Assembly (NCBI GenBank): GCA_039984955.1
Contig: JBDWTN010000005.1
Coordinates: 186,001 to 250,000 of the forward strand
Length of the DNA: 64,000 bases
Direction of reading: 5' to 3'
Source: Marinobacter alexandrii
GTDB taxonomy: Bacteria > Bacteroidota > Bacteroidia > Cytophagales > Cyclobacteriaceae
Shown: piece after piece, positions 35,775-43,147 of the stretch
Layout: every line of letters starts with the position of its first letter
How positions within the stretch are numbered: position 1 is the first letter of the stretch
The notes under the pieces: generated by a model
Told to the model about the DNA's origin: nothing
Database searches by the model: none
What the model saw: the letters and a program-made list of their open reading frames with translations, nothing else
Translations under genes and position numbers: made by a program

Positions 35775-38027
35775 ATGAAGTATCTACTATTTTCTTTTCT
35801 GTTCACCCCAACTTTTCTCATAGGACAGCATTCTATTTCAGGAAAAATAACTTCAGATGATGAAGGGTTTCCGGGAGCAACTGTCAGATTACTAAACACA
35901 GAATACGGAACAATCACATTGGTTGATGGTAGCTTTAAAATAACAGATATACCTAGTGGAGATTATCAATTAGAGGTACGTTCAGTAGGTTTTAAAATTT
36001 CAAAAAGATCAATCACAGTTCCCACATCTGAGAATATCAACATAGAACTTGAAGAAAGCACGTTAGCCATGGATGAAGTAATCGTTACGGGAACTATGAA
36101 CCCCACGTTTGTTTCACAATCTCCTGTAAAGGTCGAAGTAGTGACAGCCAAACACTTAAGCACCTATATTCCAACTGCTGCTACAAGTATTGTTGAAGGT
36201 ATCTCCCTCGTTAACGGCGTACAGGAAGTGACTGCATGTGGTGTTTGCTTTACAAATAGCATCTCAATCAATGGCTTGCCTGGTCCATACACGGCCATTC
36301 TGATGGATGGCTCTCCTATTTATGGTAATCTGGCTTCAGTCTATGGATTGAATGGAATTCCCAGCATGATTATCGACCGATTTGAAGTAATTAAAGGACC
36401 TAGTTCTACCTTGTATGGATCAGAGGCCGTTGCTGGTGTAATCAACATCATTACCAAAGATCCTTCTTCTCAGCCAAGGTTCTCCGCAGATGCCATGGGC
36501 ACCTCTCATGGTGAGTCCTTTGGGAATTTTTCTTTGGCGCCCATGATTGGAAAATCTTCCGGTTACATTGGATTGAATTATGCCTATATAAACGATTTTG
36601 ATGATGAAAATGAAGATGGGTTTGGGGATAATATCAACTTGGACCGTATTTCTTTGTTCACCAAGTGGAACATCAATCGAGCTTCCGGAAAACGGTTTAC
36701 CATTTCTGGGAAGTACTATTATGAAGACCGAAGAAACGGTGTGGAAGATTTCTTAAAAGATCGCAATTATCGAACCCTCCGTGGAAGTGATGAAATTTAC
36801 GGAGAAAGTATCTACACCAATCGCTTTGAGCTTTTTGGAACTTACGAATTGGCGTTATCAGAAAATATTAAAATTGACTATTCATTCAGTACACATGATC
36901 AGGATAGCTACTATGGTGCCGATTACTACAAAGCTTCACAGGATATCGCTTTCACCAATTTCATCTGGAATAAGCCACTGAGTAATCATGATTTGACAAC
37001 TGGTATCACCTCTCGCTATCAAAGCTATGATGACAATACTGTGGCGACAGAGAATAATGGCACTAACCAACCTGATGATCAATACATACCTGGCTTGTTT
37101 GTTCAAGATGAGTGGGAGATCTCTAAAAAATTCACAGCCTTATCTGGAGTTAGGCTAGATCATTACTCCGATCATGGAGTGATTGCTGCACCGAGGCTAA
37201 ACTTGAAATTTAAGCCAAGTGAATGGACTACACTTCGATCCAACTTTGGAACAGGATTCCGAATTGTCAATCTTTTTACTGAAGATCATGCCTTTGTGAC
37301 TGGTCAACGAGAAGTCATTATTGAAGAAGAGCTACAACCAGAAGAATCCTACAACTTCTCTCTCAATGCGAATCATGTGTACACCATAGGAGCTAGTCAG
37401 GGCATGATAGACGTGGACGCATTTTATACGTATTTCACCAATAAAATTACTCCTGATTATGAAACGGAAGGCCAAATCACTTATTCAAATACGGATGGTT
37501 TTGCTATCAGTAGAGGAATCGGAATTAACATCCAACAGGAAATGTCATTTCCTCTAGCGTTCAATATTGGATTGAATCTACAAGAGGTTACTGAAACAGA
37601 GAATGACGAAACCAAGGATATTGAGTTTGCACCGCAATGGACAGGTATTTTAACTGCAAACTATACTATCAAGTCTGCAAAGATGACACTAGGATATACA
37701 GCTCGTTTGACTGGGCCCATGGCACTTCCTGTAGTATTTGATTTAGATGAAAATAGCAATCCAATGCTTTCATCAAGACCCACTTCTTCTCCTACATTTG
37801 GTATTCACAACCTTCAGGTTTCAAAGAATTTGAATAAGGGGTGGTCTATATACGGAGGCTTGCAGAATATATTTGATTATAAGCAACCATGGTCTCCAGT
37901 TGTTGGGACCAATGATCCAAATGCTAATTTTGGGTTTAGCGATAGCTTCGATACAGCGTATGCCTATGCCCCCATACACGGAAGGGAATTTTACTTAGGA
38001 ATTAGTTGGAATCTTGCAAGAAATTAG
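35775..38027 (+). CDS. TonB-dependent outer-membrane receptor with CGVC plug motif
   Basis: A 750-residue receptor. It has a signal peptide (residues 1-18), an N-terminal carboxypeptidase-regulatory-like domain (about 19-98) and a plug that begins after MDEVIVTG and includes IKGPSSTLYGSEAVAGVINI. A 22-strand-type barrel follows, ending FYLGISWNLARN. The plug carries two close cysteines, C155 and C158 (CGVC), next to SISINGLPGPYTA. A thiol pair there could bind a metal or metallophore, or form a disulfide. Imported substrate is unknown; metal or chelate is my best guess. The stop overlaps the stop of the convergent gene. Confidence 0.9.
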   Translation: MKYLLFSFLFTPTFLIGQHSISGKITSDDEGFPGATVRLLNTEYGTITLVDGSFKITDIPSGDYQLEVRSVGFKISKRSITVPTSENINIELEESTLAMDEVIVTGTMNPTFVSQSPVKVEVVTAKHLSTYIPTAATSIVEGISLVNGVQEVTACGVCFTNSISINGLPGPYTAILMDGSPIYGNLASVYGLNGIPSMIIDRFEVIKGPSSTLYGSEAVAGVINIITKDPSSQPRFSADAMGTSHGESFGNFSLAPMIGKSSGYIGLNYAYINDFDDENEDGFGDNINLDRISLFTKWNINRASGKRFTISGKYYYEDRRNGVEDFLKDRNYRTLRGSDEIYGESIYTNRFELFGTYELALSENIKIDYSFSTHDQDSYYGADYYKASQDIAFTNFIWNKPLSNHDLTTGITSRYQSYDDNTVATENNGTNQPDDQYIPGLFVQDEWEISKKFTALSGVRLDHYSDHGVIAAPRLNLKFKPSEWTTLRSNFGTGFRIVNLFTEDHAFVTGQREVIIEEELQPEESYNFSLNANHVYTIGASQGMIDVDAFYTYFTNKITPDYETEGQITYSNTDGFAISRGIGINIQQEMSFPLAFNIGLNLQEVTETENDETKDIEFAPQWTGILTANYTIKSAKMTLGYTARLTGPMALPVVFDLDENSNPMLSSRPTSSPTFGIHNLQVSKNLNKGWSIYGGLQNIFDYKQPWSPVVGTNDPNANFGFSDSFDTAYAYAPIHGREFYLGISWNLARN

Positions 38028-38758
38028 AATCCAATTGCTGCTCCGAAACCAATAAAAGAATCCGGTGATATATCTGAAAGTCCAAATCCTCCAGATATAT
38101 CAAACTGAACTTTATCACTGCAGAGGTAAATCAATCCAGTATTGAATCGTTGATCTGATTCTCCATCGTAAAAGAAGCCATAAGGTTCAGCAAAGACTGT
38201 CCAACCTGGAGCAAAAGAATAGCCTAAAACGAGTGTATATAATGTTTGAGTACTTTCTTCAGGGAAAGTCATTCCAATATTGTATCCTAATGAGAGAGAC
38301 TCAGTTAAAGAATTAGAAAAACTTAGACGCACTTCGGGAATACTTTGACTTGGCTTAAAGGCCTCATTCCCGTTAGCAAATGTTACCTGTCCTATAATAC
38401 TAACTTGAGGAATTGCCCCTCGCTCTTCTATCAAATGAACTTTCGTTCCAAGAGTTATTGGTGACAATCCACTAACGTCAAAATCAGAAGCATCGTCCTT
38501 TACTTGTAGATAATTCTGTGTTATTCTAAACTCCAGACCATCCAACAATCCCACCCTAGCCAAAAAATTAGCGAAAGTAATGTTTGTTACATCTCCCACG
38601 CTTTCGTGAATAAAGCCGTACTCAATAAGAGCAGACCCTTTTGGAACCACGTTTGATGCTGCAGATTGTGTCGGTCGATCGGTCACTATTGGACCAGACT
38701 CTTGAGCTGATATACCTAAGACAGACAAAACAAATAGTAAAGTGAGGAGATGTTTCAT
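38024..38758 (-). CDS. Outer-membrane transporter-like protein (phenol-degradation MetA family)
   Basis: I chose the ATG at 38758, giving signal peptide KHLLTLLFVLSVLGISAQ; the open frame reaches 38785. The roughly 245-residue mature protein opens IVTDRPTQSAASNVVP and is rich in short amphipathic strands ending FIGFGAAIGF. This is the pattern of the Bacteroidota 'transporter' family related to PF13557. A palindrome lies just upstream. It converges on and overlaps the TonB receptor gene by four bases. Confidence 0.72.
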   Translation of the reverse strand: MKHLLTLLFVLSVLGISAQESGPIVTDRPTQSAASNVVPKGSALIEYGFIHESVGDVTNITFANFLARVGLLDGLEFRITQNYLQVKDDASDFDVSGLSPITLGTKVHLIEERGAIPQVSIIGQVTFANGNEAFKPSQSIPEVRLSFSNSLTESLSLGYNIGMTFPEESTQTLYTLVLGYSFAPGWTVFAEPYGFFYDGESDQRFNTGLIYLCSDKVQFDISGGFGLSDISPDSFIGFGAAIGF

Positions 38759-38768
38759 TTTCCTAAAA

Positions 38769-38793
38769 TATACCAAATTGATCATCTGGTATA
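38769..38793. promoter_or_regulatory. Inverted repeat upstream of the 38024-38758 gene
   Basis: TATACCA and TGGTATA form perfect 7-bp arms around 11 bp, 10 bp before the chosen ATG. It overlaps a weak -7 candidate (TATATTTT on the minus strand). An operator is likely; the regulator is unknown. Confidence 0.5.
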
Positions 38794-39057: not shown

Positions 39058-39078
39058 GGAAAGTGTTTATTTAGTAAA

Positions 39079-39106
39079 TGCAAATGAGTTGCATAAACTA
39101 TATTTG
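39079..39106 (+). promoter_or_regulatory. Operator and -7 element of the Fur/Zur-like regulator gene
   Basis: TGCAAATGAGTTGCA at 39079-39093 is an inverted repeat (TGCAA-N5-TTGCA). The perfect -7 element TATATTTG follows at 39099-39106. The operator lies in the promoter spacer, so binding should repress the regulator's own operon. The same operator recurs at 41908 and 41946. Confidence 0.7.
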
Positions 39107-39110
39107 CGAT

Positions 39111-39527
39111 ATGTCAAAGGATAACCTAAAATCCATTTTAAAAAATCATAATCTTCGAATTACAGATTGCAGGCTGGATGTAGTGCAGTACTTTCTCGAT
39201 GAGAAGAGTGCGCTTTCTCAAGGAAGCTTAGAAAATAAGTTCACTCAATACGACAGAGTGACTCTTTATCGCACATTGAATAGCTTTTTAGATTCAGGTA
39301 TTCTTCATAAAATTCCTAATGCTACTGGAGTTGCCACCTATGGCCTCTGCCATGAAACATGTTCTCCGGAACATCATGATCATAATCATATCCATTTTAA
39401 ATGCAATACCTGCGGTCAAATTGAATGTCTGGATGACAAGGAAGTTCCTAAGGTGACTGTTCCTATTGGATATCAGATAGGTGCCGTAAACATGATTGTA
39501 GATGGCGTTTGCGCTAAATGTGCGTAA
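39111..39527 (+). CDS. Fur-family metal-responsive repressor, Zur-like
   Basis: I place the start at the ATG at 39111 (SKDNLKSILKNHNLRITDCR). The open frame reaches 39078, but that ATG lies inside the operator and upstream of the -7. The 138-residue protein has the Fur winged helix (DRVTLYRTLNSFLDSGIL) and a histidine-rich hinge (HHDHNHIH, residues 88-95). It also has two CxxC pairs (C98/C101 and C134/C137) for a structural zinc. His/Cys richness and the neighbouring receptor suggest zinc sensing, but iron or another metal is not excluded. A TonB receptor starts 3 bp downstream. Confidence 0.85.
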   Translation: MSKDNLKSILKNHNLRITDCRLDVVQYFLDEKSALSQGSLENKFTQYDRVTLYRTLNSFLDSGILHKIPNATGVATYGLCHETCSPEHHDHNHIHFKCNTCGQIECLDDKEVPKVTVPIGYQIGAVNMIVDGVCAKCA

Positions 39528-39530
39528 ACT

Positions 39531-41903
39531 ATGAGGATCATTCTGCTTACTTTTTTTTATCTCATTGGAGTGTTTGCATTTGCACAAACAAATCCATGTA
39601 CCAGAACTATAGAAGGTAAAATCTTAGATATAGACTCCAAGGAGCCTTTACCTTTTGCCACCATTAAAGTTTTAGATTCTTCAAAGGGTGCTGTTGCAGG
39701 TGAAAATGGGGATTTTATTATCGAAAATATATGTGATGATGAAGTGGATCTGGAAGTTCGTTTTCTAGGTTACAAGACTGTCGTACACCATCATGATTTT
39801 CATCATGCTGATCCGATCATTTATATGGCTGCAGATGAAACACTGCTAGAAAGTGTTGTTGTAGAAGAAAAGTTGAATGTCCATGACCTTAAAACACTCA
39901 GTTCTAAAGAAATTCAGTTAGATGTTCTTGATGCAGCTGGCCAATCAGCAGGAGAAATCTTTGCTCAAACCTCAGGTGTGAGTTTGCTTAAAACCGGCCA
40001 GAACATTTCCAAGCCTATCGTTCATGGCTTGCATTCCAATAGAGTTTTAATCATCAACAATGGTGTAAGACATGCCTATCAAGCTTGGGGAACGGAACAT
40101 GGCCCTGAGATAGACCCTACGCAAGTTGATAGAATTCAACTGGTTAAAGGAGCATCTACTGTCAGGTATGGTTCTGAAGCACTCGGTGGAGTGATTCTAT
40201 TTGATGCCCCATCCCCTACTTACAATACTAAACTGAGTGGTGAAGTAAATGGAGGTTTTCAAACCAATGGGCGTGCTTACAACGGAGAGTTAAGTCTGAC
40301 ACAAGGTTTTGAAAGAGCTGCTTGGCGAGCTTCTATCTCTGGAATAAGACAAGGTGATTTAAGTGCACCAAACTATCAGTTAACAAACACAGGGAAACGA
40401 GAGTTAGGATTCTCACTGGCGGGAAAATTCCATTTTCCAATCATAGACATAAACATTTACGCTAGTAGGTTTAATCAGGAGCTTGGAATACTAAGAGGTT
40501 CTGTAAATGGAAACTTTGAAGACTTACTATTTGCTTTTCAAGCCGAAATACCTAATGAGACTTTTCCTTTTTCATACGACATCAATAATCCAAAACAGGA
40601 GGTTAAACATGATCTGATACGCCTAAAAGCATCGCTTTTCTTAGGCAAGCAACAGTTTGATATTCAATATGCTTTTCAGAATAACCTAAGAAAAGAATTT
40701 GATGTAAGGCGCGGAAACTTAAATTCACAGCCATCAATTGATTTAAAACTTATCTCTCACTCGTTAGACATAGATTGGGATCATCCCAGCGAAGGTGTTT
40801 GGTCAGGCACATATGGAATCCAATTGTTCACACAAAACAATGACAACATTTTTGGAACAGGAACTACTCCTTTCATCCCCAATTACAACACTTATAATAT
40901 AGGAATATTTGGGATTGAATCATATACCGTTGGAAATACGGTATATGAGGCAGGAATCCGATATGATTTCATGAACCAGGATGTAAGGGGAAGAGATCTT
41001 TTTCAAAACATTTTTAGAAACAATCAAAACTATCAAAACTTCAGTTTTACCATTGGAATGGTAAAACAGCTAAGCAAAATCATTTCTGTTAGAACAAATA
41101 TTGGAACGGCCTGGAGACCACCAAATATTGGGGAACTCTATAGTTTTGGAAGACATCAAAACATACTTCAATATGGTATTTGGAGACATGAATTCACAAG
41201 TGCCAATGAAATTGAATTTGACCGTGTCTTAACTGAAGAAGATCGTTCCATTAAAAATGAGCAAGGCCTGAAATGGATTAGTTCTGTAGAATTAAGGACA
41301 GAATCATTCGATTTGGAGGTAACGCCATATGTCAATTACATCCGTAACTATTTCTTCTCAAGACCTTTCGGTTTAAGAGGTTCGAGAAGGGGGACATTAC
41401 CCTATTTCATATTTGACCAAACAGATGCTTTCTATTCCGGAATTGATCTAGATATTAAGAAGTATTGGAGTGAATTTTTTCAAACAGGAATAAAGGCTTC
41501 TTATGTTTATGCTGAAGACCTAAATAATGATGGATCTTTTGTCGGCATCCCTCCTTTGAATGTGCAAATAGAATTCGTCAGGAAATACAGAAATTTCAGC
41601 TTTAAAATAAATCCTGAATGGACAGCAAGGCAATTCAATGAACCTCCTGTCATTACACCTGATCAAATTATCGATGCTCAAGAAATACCTTTTGAACAAG
41701 ATGAAATATTTGATTTGGTGCAAGCTCCTAATGGTTTCTTTCTTTTGAATGGTAGTATTGAATACAAGAAGAAAAATTTGCAATTTGCTATAAGAGGTCA
41801 AAATCTTCTAAATACTTCCTACCGTAGGTATACGGATTTCCTCAGATACTATGCAGATGATCCGGGCATTAATTTGACCGCTCACATAAGTTATTCATTT
41901 TAG
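39531..41903 (+). CDS. TonB-dependent receptor, probable metal (zinc) importer
   Basis: A 790-residue receptor. It has a signal peptide (1-19) and a carboxypeptidase-regulatory-like domain (about 24-103) carrying a histidine cluster HHHDFHH. The plug contains IQLVKGASTVRYGSEALGG, and the barrel ends in an aromatic residue (ISYSF). It lies 3 bp after the Fur/Zur-like gene, so it shares that autoregulated promoter. The plug segment SKPIVHGLHSNRVLIINNG resembles ZnuD-type receptors. Zinc import is the most economical reading but rests on context and the His cluster. Confidence 0.87.
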   Translation: MRIILLTFFYLIGVFAFAQTNPCTRTIEGKILDIDSKEPLPFATIKVLDSSKGAVAGENGDFIIENICDDEVDLEVRFLGYKTVVHHHDFHHADPIIYMAADETLLESVVVEEKLNVHDLKTLSSKEIQLDVLDAAGQSAGEIFAQTSGVSLLKTGQNISKPIVHGLHSNRVLIINNGVRHAYQAWGTEHGPEIDPTQVDRIQLVKGASTVRYGSEALGGVILFDAPSPTYNTKLSGEVNGGFQTNGRAYNGELSLTQGFERAAWRASISGIRQGDLSAPNYQLTNTGKRELGFSLAGKFHFPIIDINIYASRFNQELGILRGSVNGNFEDLLFAFQAEIPNETFPFSYDINNPKQEVKHDLIRLKASLFLGKQQFDIQYAFQNNLRKEFDVRRGNLNSQPSIDLKLISHSLDIDWDHPSEGVWSGTYGIQLFTQNNDNIFGTGTTPFIPNYNTYNIGIFGIESYTVGNTVYEAGIRYDFMNQDVRGRDLFQNIFRNNQNYQNFSFTIGMVKQLSKIISVRTNIGTAWRPPNIGELYSFGRHQNILQYGIWRHEFTSANEIEFDRVLTEEDRSIKNEQGLKWISSVELRTESFDLEVTPYVNYIRNYFFSRPFGLRGSRRGTLPYFIFDQTDAFYSGIDLDIKKYWSEFFQTGIKASYVYAEDLNNDGSFVGIPPLNVQIEFVRKYRNFSFKINPEWTARQFNEPPVITPDQIIDAQEIPFEQDEIFDLVQAPNGFFLLNGSIEYKKKNLQFAIRGQNLLNTSYRRYTDFLRYYADDPGINLTAHISYSF

Positions 41904-41907
41904 TTCT

Positions 41908-41960
41908 TACAACACTGTTGCATTTATAATATTCCTTATTATACTTGCAATAGTATTGCA
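41908..41960 (+). promoter_or_regulatory. Promoter with two Zur-like operators ahead of the lipoprotein gene
   Basis: TTG at 41918-41920 and TATACTTG at 41940-41947 (one mismatch to TAnnTTTG) are separated by 19 bp. TACAACACTGTTGCA (41908-41922, one mismatch) covers the -33. TGCAATAGTATTGCA (41946-41960, perfect 7-1-7 palindrome) covers the end of the -7. Repressor at either site would block RNA polymerase. Confidence 0.75.
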
Positions 41961-41976
41961 TTAATCAATTAACAAA

Positions 41977-42612
41977 ATGAAGAATAGACTTAACAATCTA
42001 ATGAGCGTAGCACTTTTAGGAAGTGTTGTTTTATTATCTAGCTGTAGTGATGATGACGCACCTGCAGCGGAGAATGAGGAAGAAGAAATCACATCTGTAA
42101 CACTTACCTTCACACCTGATGGTGGTGGTACTCCTGTTGTAGCAACTTGGTTTGATATAGATGGAGAAGAAGGACCAATTGAAGCGGAACAGACAGAAAT
42201 AAATTTGGCAGCTAATACTGCTTATGATCTTTCCATTGCGCTGCTAAATACTTTAACTGATGAGGTCGAAGAACAAAATGTTACGGCTGAAATTCAAGGA
42301 GAAGATGACGAACATATGTTCTTTTTCGGTTTTACATCTGATGTCTTCACTAGTCCGACTGGTGATGGAAATATAGGTGCTTCTAGTAGAAATGATGAAA
42401 TGAATTATGGTGATGATGATGGGACTTTACCTCTGGGTTTGTTGACTTCTTGGGAAACAGGTGCTGCAGCTTCAGGCTCAACATTCACTGTTATTCTAAA
42501 ACATCAACCACCACTTGAAGAAGGAGGTACCCCTCAGAAAACAGCTACATCCACTTCCCTAACAGGAGATTCAGATATTGATCTTGACTTTGTGTTGAAT
42601 ATCAACGAATAG
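41977..42612 (+). CDS. Secreted lipoprotein, candidate member of the Zur-like regulon
   Basis: A 211-residue lipoprotein (signal LMSVALLGSVVLLSSC, cysteine 23) with an acidic linker followed by a beta-rich domain. Its sequence resembles Bacteroidota proteins labelled 'type 1 periplasmic binding fold superfamily', usually found beside TonB receptors. EDDEHMFFFGF and many Asp/Glu residues could bind metal, but no defined site is visible. Its double operator links it to the regulator at 39111. A surface metal-binding partner of the upstream receptor is a reasonable inference. Confidence 0.7.
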   Translation: MKNRLNNLMSVALLGSVVLLSSCSDDDAPAAENEEEEITSVTLTFTPDGGGTPVVATWFDIDGEEGPIEAEQTEINLAANTAYDLSIALLNTLTDEVEEQNVTAEIQGEDDEHMFFFGFTSDVFTSPTGDGNIGASSRNDEMNYGDDDGTLPLGLLTSWETGAAASGSTFTVILKHQPPLEEGGTPQKTATSTSLTGDSDIDLDFVLNINE

Positions 42613-42716: not shown

Positions 42717-42814
42717 TCTAGAATCTATATGCTCAATTTTAAGACTGTTATCTATTTTTCTTTTTGCAAGAACCGTAAGTGATTCACTTTATTCTAGTTG
42801 GCTACCTTTGTCCC

Positions 42815-43147
42815 ATGTCGAAAATACCTCCTTGCCCCAACTGTAAATCGCCATACGCCTACCCTACTGATAATTTACTCATGTGTCCTGAGTGTGGTCA
42901 TGAGTGGAATCCTGAGGAAGATGAGATTGAAGAAACGGTGATCAAGGATGCCAATGGAAATGTACTGAAGGATGGTGACTCTGTCGTGGTGGTGAAGGAT
43001 TTACCAGTCAAGGGTGCCCCCAAGCCTGTCAAAGCTGGCACCAAAGTGAAAAATATTCGCCTCACAGATAGCGATCACAACATTGATTGTAAGATTGATG
43101 GATTTGGTTCTATGGCACTCAAGTCGGAATTTGTAAAGAAGGCATAA
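42815..43147 (+). CDS. yjdM: Zinc-ribbon protein YjdM (PhnA-like)
   Basis: Starting at the ATG at 42815 ([15 protein letters not shown], as in homologues) gives 111 residues; the open frame extends to 42779. The N-terminal zinc ribbon uses C7/C10 and C24/C27. The C-terminal PhnA domain has [20 protein letters not shown] and [17 protein letters not shown]. The old name PhnA is historical and does not mean phosphonoacetate hydrolase. Family call is firm; physiological role is unclear. Confidence 0.92.

Follow-up and report, generated by a model that had tools for sequence, protein, structure and literature searches.

Organization of the locus and its promoters

In the present study, we analysed a stretch of 64,000 nucleotides from Marinobacter alexandrii, a member of the Cytophagales (Bacteroidota), in which a predicted regulator gene of the FUR family, a TonB-dependent receptor gene and a lipoprotein gene stand together with three palindromic sites and form a candidate Zur regulon. 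The whole stretch (C5:186001-250000 of G000, host genome 4.88 Mb) is called the window. The regulator gene, zur (39111..39527, forward strand), encodes a predicted FUR-family repressor of 138 amino acids, which scored 43.7 bits against the Pfam FUR model (cut-off 23.1). An in-frame ATG is also present at 39078, and the start at 39111 agrees with the relatives. After a gap of 3 bp the zur operon continues with the receptor gene (39531..41903, forward strand; 790 amino acids), in which Pfam detected Plug, barrel and CarbopepD_reg_2 domains. The third gene (41977..42612, forward strand) encodes a lipoprotein of 211 amino acids without a confident Pfam match, a candidate zinc-capture partner of the receptor.

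The original prediction had placed one palindrome at three positions, namely 39079, 41908 (with one mismatch) and 41946, and all were found in the sequence as claimed. None of these sites has a strand. The first, TGCAAATGAGTTGCA (39079..39093), has exact 5-5 arms and a core that departs from the consensus. It lies 5 bp 5' of the -7 box TATATTTG of zur (39099..39106, forward strand), and the zur ATG follows this box 4 nt downstream. The lipoprotein promoter carries the other two sites. Operator 1, TACAACACTGTTGCA (41908..41922), has one arm mismatch and spans the -33 element, whose TTG is at 41918-41920. The -7 box TATACTTG (41940..41947, forward strand) is located 19 bp past this TTG and has one mismatch to TAnnTTTG, the -7 consensus of Bacteroidota. 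Operator 2, TGCAATAGTATTGCA (41946..41960), is an exact and complete 7-1-7 palindrome, 38 bp from operator 1, and shares two bases with the -7 box, so that the two sites lie over the -33 and touch the -7 as had been described.

Operator 1 is kept in the genus mates. At the zur promoter the position of the operator is the same in most relatives whose promoters were printed, and within the genus the TGCAA/TTGCA arms are retained with a variable core. In 11 of 14 hand-picked promoters an ATG was found 4-5 nt after TAnnTTTG with the operator upstream, and the other three did not have this layout at the starts used. Since the zur ATG follows its -7 box so closely, likewise in most of the printed relatives, the zur message may be leaderless.

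Conservation of the operator

A chance origin of the three palindromes was considered, because the loose motif TGCAATANTATTGCA with up to three mismatches was no commoner in the window (6 matches) than expected from shuffles (6.3); the site at 39079 was not among these matches, its core being different. The exact 5-5 palindrome, however, occurred ten times in the 4.88-Mb genome against once for a reversed control. Because it is so rare genome-wide, two copies inside 2.9 kb are unusual (about 0.006 expected). Six of the ten copies are intragenic, lying in open reading frames (ORFs), and a seventh, at C5:81832, lies upstream of an ORF of 958 amino acids. A tighter pattern gave six sites in the same genome, which were two at the lipoprotein promoter, one before a flavin adenine dinucleotide (FAD) oxidoreductase gene and three in ORFs (C5:83833, C7:326462 and C7:3206744).

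For a test of conservation we used a second set of loci, obtained by a scan of named genomes (L124-L202; 79 loci, from the best 80 of 96 matches). Nine loci from genomes already in the first set and five whose gene was uncalled or had no upstream DNA were removed, leaving 65; L186 is presumed to come from the same genome as G005. The best site upstream of the lipoprotein, receptor or regulator gene was scored against TGCAAYANTRTTGCA. As this motif had been derived from the first genome set, the count in the 65 loci is an independent test of it. The best site had no mismatch in 17 loci, one in 17, two in 4 and more in 27. Sites with at most one mismatch were therefore present in 34 of 65 loci, against 2 of 1300 shuffled upstream regions. 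For other genes of these loci, such a site was present in 13 of 294 upstream regions, some of which may share a divergent site. Lack of conservation upstream of orthologues had been named beforehand as a potential refutation, and conservation is what these counts show.

Across 39 genomes, exact TGCAAYANTRTTGCA was found at 72 sites in 25 genomes, and the reversed control gave none in all 39. A site was counted as inside an ORF when it lay more than 60 bp past the called start and more than 15 bp before the end. By this rule 8 of the 72 sites were inside ORFs, and in a subset of 54 sites the number was 7, compared with 80.7% of random positions in the same loci. The conservation in the 65 loci, the empty reversed control and the position of most sites outside ORFs make chance an extremely improbable explanation.

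In 54 distinct pairs of neighbouring sites (at most three mismatches summed, related loci included), the spacing was 28 bp in 18, 38-40 bp in 19, 17 bp in 3 and other values in 14. Roughly one helical turn separates the two main peaks. The Rayleigh R was 0.74 for a period of 10.5 bp, 0.73 for 11.0 and 0.66 for both 10.0 and 11.5; this flat response across periods arises because two peaks hold most of the data. In our reading, two Zur dimers would bind in helical phase.

The regulator and the genes behind the motif

The best curated and PDB matches of the regulator were the Zur model and E. coli Zur (4mtd), by a narrow lead and below the curated cut-off. It carries CxxC pairs at 98/101 and 134/137 (alignment A2), and E. 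coli Zur aligns with it at GILH, GLC and EHHDHNH, the position of the Glu being ambiguous. The CxxC pairs may form a structural Cys4 site, and the aligned residues may correspond to the regulatory ligands of E. coli Zur. The genome holds three FUR proteins, and the one in the window is the most divergent. Scores near 100 bits were obtained for each of the other two, whose genes adjoin, by eye, a peroxiredoxin-like gene (L076) and a RelA/SpoT-like gene (L077); we infer that they are PerR and Fur. Orthologues of the regulator (E 1e-6) were present in 30 of the 39 genomes. Regulator and motif occurred together in 24 genomes, the regulator alone in 6, the motif alone in one (G001, 73% complete) and neither in 8 (Fisher p=3.6e-4, uncorrected for ancestry).

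We then grouped by similarity the 204 proteins encoded in the gene runs behind the sites, a gene run being a guess at an operon, and named the clusters by Pfam searches with one to three of their members. Among the clusters found in two or more genomes, the largest counts by genome were those of the lipoprotein (13), the window-type receptors (12) and a mixed group of ATP-binding cassette (ABC) ATPases (11). A small unnamed exported family and the ABC-2-type permeases followed with 8 each, MerC with 7 (an eighth, L115, was found by Pfam), the FAD oxidoreductase with 6, an FtsX-type permease with 4, PhoX with 3, and COG0523, DUF1826 and HupE/UreJ with 2 each. HisI was found in one genome. In L097 a single site heads a run of MerC, an unnamed ORF, DUF1826, HisI, a COG0523 GTPase and CysS. 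According to the passages available from PMC2770081, proteobacterial Zur regulons include HisI, CysRS and COG0523 genes, and DUF1826 is shown in such Zur-linked clusters. The match of the L097 run to this gene set is the strongest ground for zinc. Because the motif precedes zinc-starvation genes in relatives, Zur is favoured over an iron-sensing Fur.

These data also bear on a regulator with the same architecture that senses another divalent metal, such as manganese, nickel or cobalt. The metal choice of FUR-family proteins is not safely read from sequence, sites in two genomes are followed by HupE/UreJ-type genes, whose name links them to nickel, and sites in several genomes by MerC. Set against this are HisI, CysS, DUF1826 and COG0523 behind one site, which agree with the zinc pattern in those parts of PMC2770081, and the Zur top matches of the regulator. 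We regard another metal as very unlikely. No zinc-free ribosomal paralogue was noticed behind a site, without a systematic search for one, and no znuABC was noticed among the 204 downstream proteins, not all of which were named.

Further genes were seen near the sites. A thioredoxin-reductase-like FAD oxidoreductase (L069:5367-6269, corresponding to C8:45366-46268), a Pyr_redox_2 protein, has a Zur-type site at C8:46348, centred 87 bp 5' of the gene, and this arrangement recurs in other genera. Among the 15 copies, which come from 13 genomes, a site with no more than one mismatch lies in the 300 bp 5' of five (own genome, G011, G021, G028 and G034). The copy of G016 has a site with two mismatches, and no comparably close match was seen for the remaining copies. 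The G001 and G003 genes stand further along a run behind a site. PhoX-type alkaline phosphatase genes follow pairs of Zur-type sites in three genomes (L106 by Pfam, L108 and L113 by similarity). DUF4625 lipoproteins, whose genes come straight after Zur-type sites and lie near window-type receptors (L120:1899-2849 and L123:3088-3918), are perhaps another partner family.

The receptor and the lipoprotein

The N-terminal CarbopepD_reg_2 domain of the receptor (residues 27-111) contains the cluster HHHDFHH at residues 86-92 (39786..39806, forward strand). Of 82 related receptors, 31 have a motif of the HHHDxHH type, which was absent from all 76 other ORFs longer than 600 amino acids. It occurred in 17 of 20 receptors with an adjacent zur in the same direction, compared with 12 of 45 without one. 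This cluster may hand over zinc. Membership in the ZnuD family was rejected, the receptor scoring 36.7 bits with NF038289 against a cut-off of 950. A second TonB receptor gene and a gene of the Phenol_MetA_deg family (35775-38785) adjoin zur and are likewise adjacent in G005; among the matches listed, no close site was found 5' of these genes.

The lipoprotein family is undescribed and is the most interesting part of the regulon. Relatives of the lipoprotein were found in 25 of the 39 genomes, its own included. A Pfam scan of 54 family members gave a best E value of 0.0038, in one member, and none of the nine families matched is linked to heme by name. In the PDB there was a single profile match at E 0.21. 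The AlphaFold2 model (predicted local distance difference test 88.2, predicted template modelling score 0.81) consists mostly of beta strands, residues 97-108 forming a short helical stretch, and Foldseek returned nothing at E 0.001 for it (best 0.039, template modelling score 0.28).

In alignment A1 (24 sequences), His113 is present in all 24 and His176 in 23, the exception being L029; Asp60, Tyr83, Asp146 and Asp148 are invariant too. Alignment A4 adds conserved acidic positions. Its invariant Glu112-His113 is partly forced because the scan pattern contained this pair, and the claim for His113 rests on A1. A single protein can hold as many as five copies of the domain of about 172 amino acids. 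L176 (911 amino acids) has five motifs of the His113 type, 172-175 residues apart; L156, L166, L171 and L174 have three, and several others have two.

The lipobox Cys23 is followed by Ser-Asp-Asp-Asp (42043..42057, forward strand), which resembles the Bacteroides fragilis export signal SDDDD, deduced for surface lipoproteins of that species in the portion of PMC5080379 at hand. At least two acidic residues among the six after the Cys were counted in 48 of 54 rows, and in some of the other six the Cys is misplaced. With C-SDDD the protein shows the acidic signal after the Cys that is expected of surface lipoproteins of Bacteroidota (lipoprotein export signal), and it would be exposed at the cell surface. 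A small protein with two CxxC pairs, which we take to be PhnA-like, is encoded directly downstream of the lipoprotein gene (42779-43147).

The Zur regulon may be real and the lipoprotein no zinc binder, in which case the lipoprotein would serve the receptor structurally or in its assembly, or would bind an organic ligand that carries zinc. Just two His residues are near-invariant, the beta-strand model weakly resembles Ig/cohesin-like structures, and tandem copies of the domain would also suit an adhesin or spacer. The conservation of His113, His176 and several Asp/Glu residues speaks for zinc binding, and so do the shared control and the fact that many loci pair it with the receptor. On balance we find a non-binding lipoprotein somewhat less likely than not.

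Assignment to zinc and proposed mechanism

Taken together, the Zur top matches, the conserved operators, the zinc-gene neighbours and the co-occurrence of regulator and motif support the Zur-like regulon of regulator, receptor and lipoprotein that had been proposed. We estimate the probability at about 0.86 that the three genes form the core of a Zur regulon in Cytophagales-type Bacteroidota, including a zinc-responsive receptor and a putative zinc-binding lipoprotein.

Several results weigh against this reading. The regulator scored 40.1 bits with the NCBIfam Zur model (cut-off 167), with 37.6 for the Fur model. The zur operator, its arms exact, has three mismatches to TGCAAYANTRTTGCA and was missed by the searches with TGCAATANTATTGCA and the tighter pattern. 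The promoters of the compared loci share ancestry, which confounds both the conservation and the co-occurrence. A close site was lacking in 31 of the 65 loci, including all ten titled Flavobacteriia (class taken from titles). The regulon of the own genome looks tiny: operators precede zinc-starvation genes in relatives, and here they precede just the genes of the two window promoters and one FAD oxidoreductase gene. The cobW-domain matches of this genome are weak (34.9, 22.9 and 21.1 bits; cut-off 20.7). The expectation of the original prediction that the motif stands upstream of zinc genes held in relatives for the run of COG0523, HisI, CysS and DUF1826, and failed for the ABC-3 permease genes of the own genome. 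For these genes (C5:181523 and 182788) there is no site with up to one arm mismatch among the matches listed, none of which falls between C5:124605 and 198282.

The two ABC-3 (Zn/Mn-type) permease genes occupy C5:181523-183585, about 2.4 kb before the window, and one has an open frame of 462 amino acids against a model of 258 positions. Eight Flavobacteriia loci were inspected, and L160 carries TGCAATTGAGTTGCA. An identical palindrome, ACGCAATTTAGTTGCGT, was seen at L190:2020-2036 and L191:2439-2455 in two Flavobacteriia, near a divergent FUR gene and a receptor, and is perhaps a variant operator.

The top curated matches of the receptor also count against zinc, being heme/hemoglobin models far under their cut-offs (TIGR01786, 97.2 against 323.75; TIGR01785, 82.3 against 316.85). 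They would suit an iron or heme uptake operon of the HmuR/HmuY kind under an iron-sensing Fur, and lipoprotein partners accompany the heme receptors of Bacteroidota. The pair does not qualify as a HmuR/HmuY system: the receptor fails the heme models, and the Pfam scan of the 54 lipoprotein members matched no family linked to heme by name, the window lipoprotein itself lacking a confident Pfam match. Since two FUR proteins with ordinary, higher scores are encoded elsewhere in the genome and the motif has zinc-type neighbours, iron or heme uptake was set aside as improbable.

For the Zur regulon, the following mechanism is proposed from the sequence data. When zinc is sufficient, it would act as co-repressor and a Zur dimer would bind 15-bp palindromes of the form TGCAAYA-N-TRTTGCA and close variants. 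One of these sites lies 5' of the -7 box in the zur-receptor operon, so that Zur would regulate itself, and two others, 38 bp apart, cover the -33 and -7 of the lipoprotein gene. Zur would repress both promoters. When zinc falls, Zur would release the DNA and the TonB-dependent receptor and lipoprotein would be made. The lipoprotein would be flipped to the cell surface, bind Zn2+ or a zinc complex through its two conserved histidines and acidic residues, and pass the zinc to the receptor, whose N-terminal HHHDFHH cluster may receive it in the periplasm. In a more specific form, to which we give not quite even odds, a surface zinc antenna of one to five copies of the ~172-residue beta domain would feed a receptor with a periplasmic HHHDxHH finger, and two Zur dimers at fixed phase (17, 28 or 38-40 bp) would silence the antenna.

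Comparison with known systems

The control of zinc uptake in Bacteroidota seems little described. 'Bacteroid' is not mentioned in the available parts of the Zur reviews, including PMC6103462. In those of the COG0523 paper (PMC2770081) 'Bacteroidetes' is not mentioned, and Cytophaga hutchinsonii appears once, in a table of UreG. By title, abstract start or passages no published Zur regulon of Bacteroidota was found, subscription papers and RegPrecise lying outside this coverage. A usable operator motif allows direct predictions of zinc genes across many genomes.

As described in the passages at hand from PMC6103462, Zur regulons of proteobacteria and others have palindromic operators, 7-1-7 boxes included, with autoregulation in some genomes and with TonB receptors, COG0523 proteins and enzyme paralogues among the targets. 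The present regulon is similar in its FUR-family repressor, palindromic operators, predicted autoregulation and TonB receptor, and in the COG0523 and enzyme paralogues found in relatives. It differs in the letters of the operator, in promoters of the Bacteroidota type, and in targets, here or in relatives, such as the undescribed lipoprotein family, MerC, the FAD oxidoreductase and transporters of the FtsX and ABC-2 types. As with ZnuD, a TonB-dependent receptor is tied to Zur; unlike ZnuD, the receptor of the window has an extra CarbopepD_reg_2 domain with HHHDFHH and a candidate lipoprotein partner.

The acidic stretch directly after the lipid-bearing Cys is like that of Bacteroidota surface lipoproteins with an export signal, as given in the part of PMC5080379 consulted, a comparison that covers the signal and not the domain. 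In the XusA/XusB system of Bacteroides, a TonB receptor works with a cargo-binding lipoprotein and the cargo is iron, as stated in the available text of PMC12574912. The pair in the window resembles it as a receptor with a lipoprotein, which was set beside XusB by description alone. In contrast to XusA/XusB with its iron cargo, the pair described here is under predicted control of the zinc type and, if the reading is true, would represent a new way of zinc capture.

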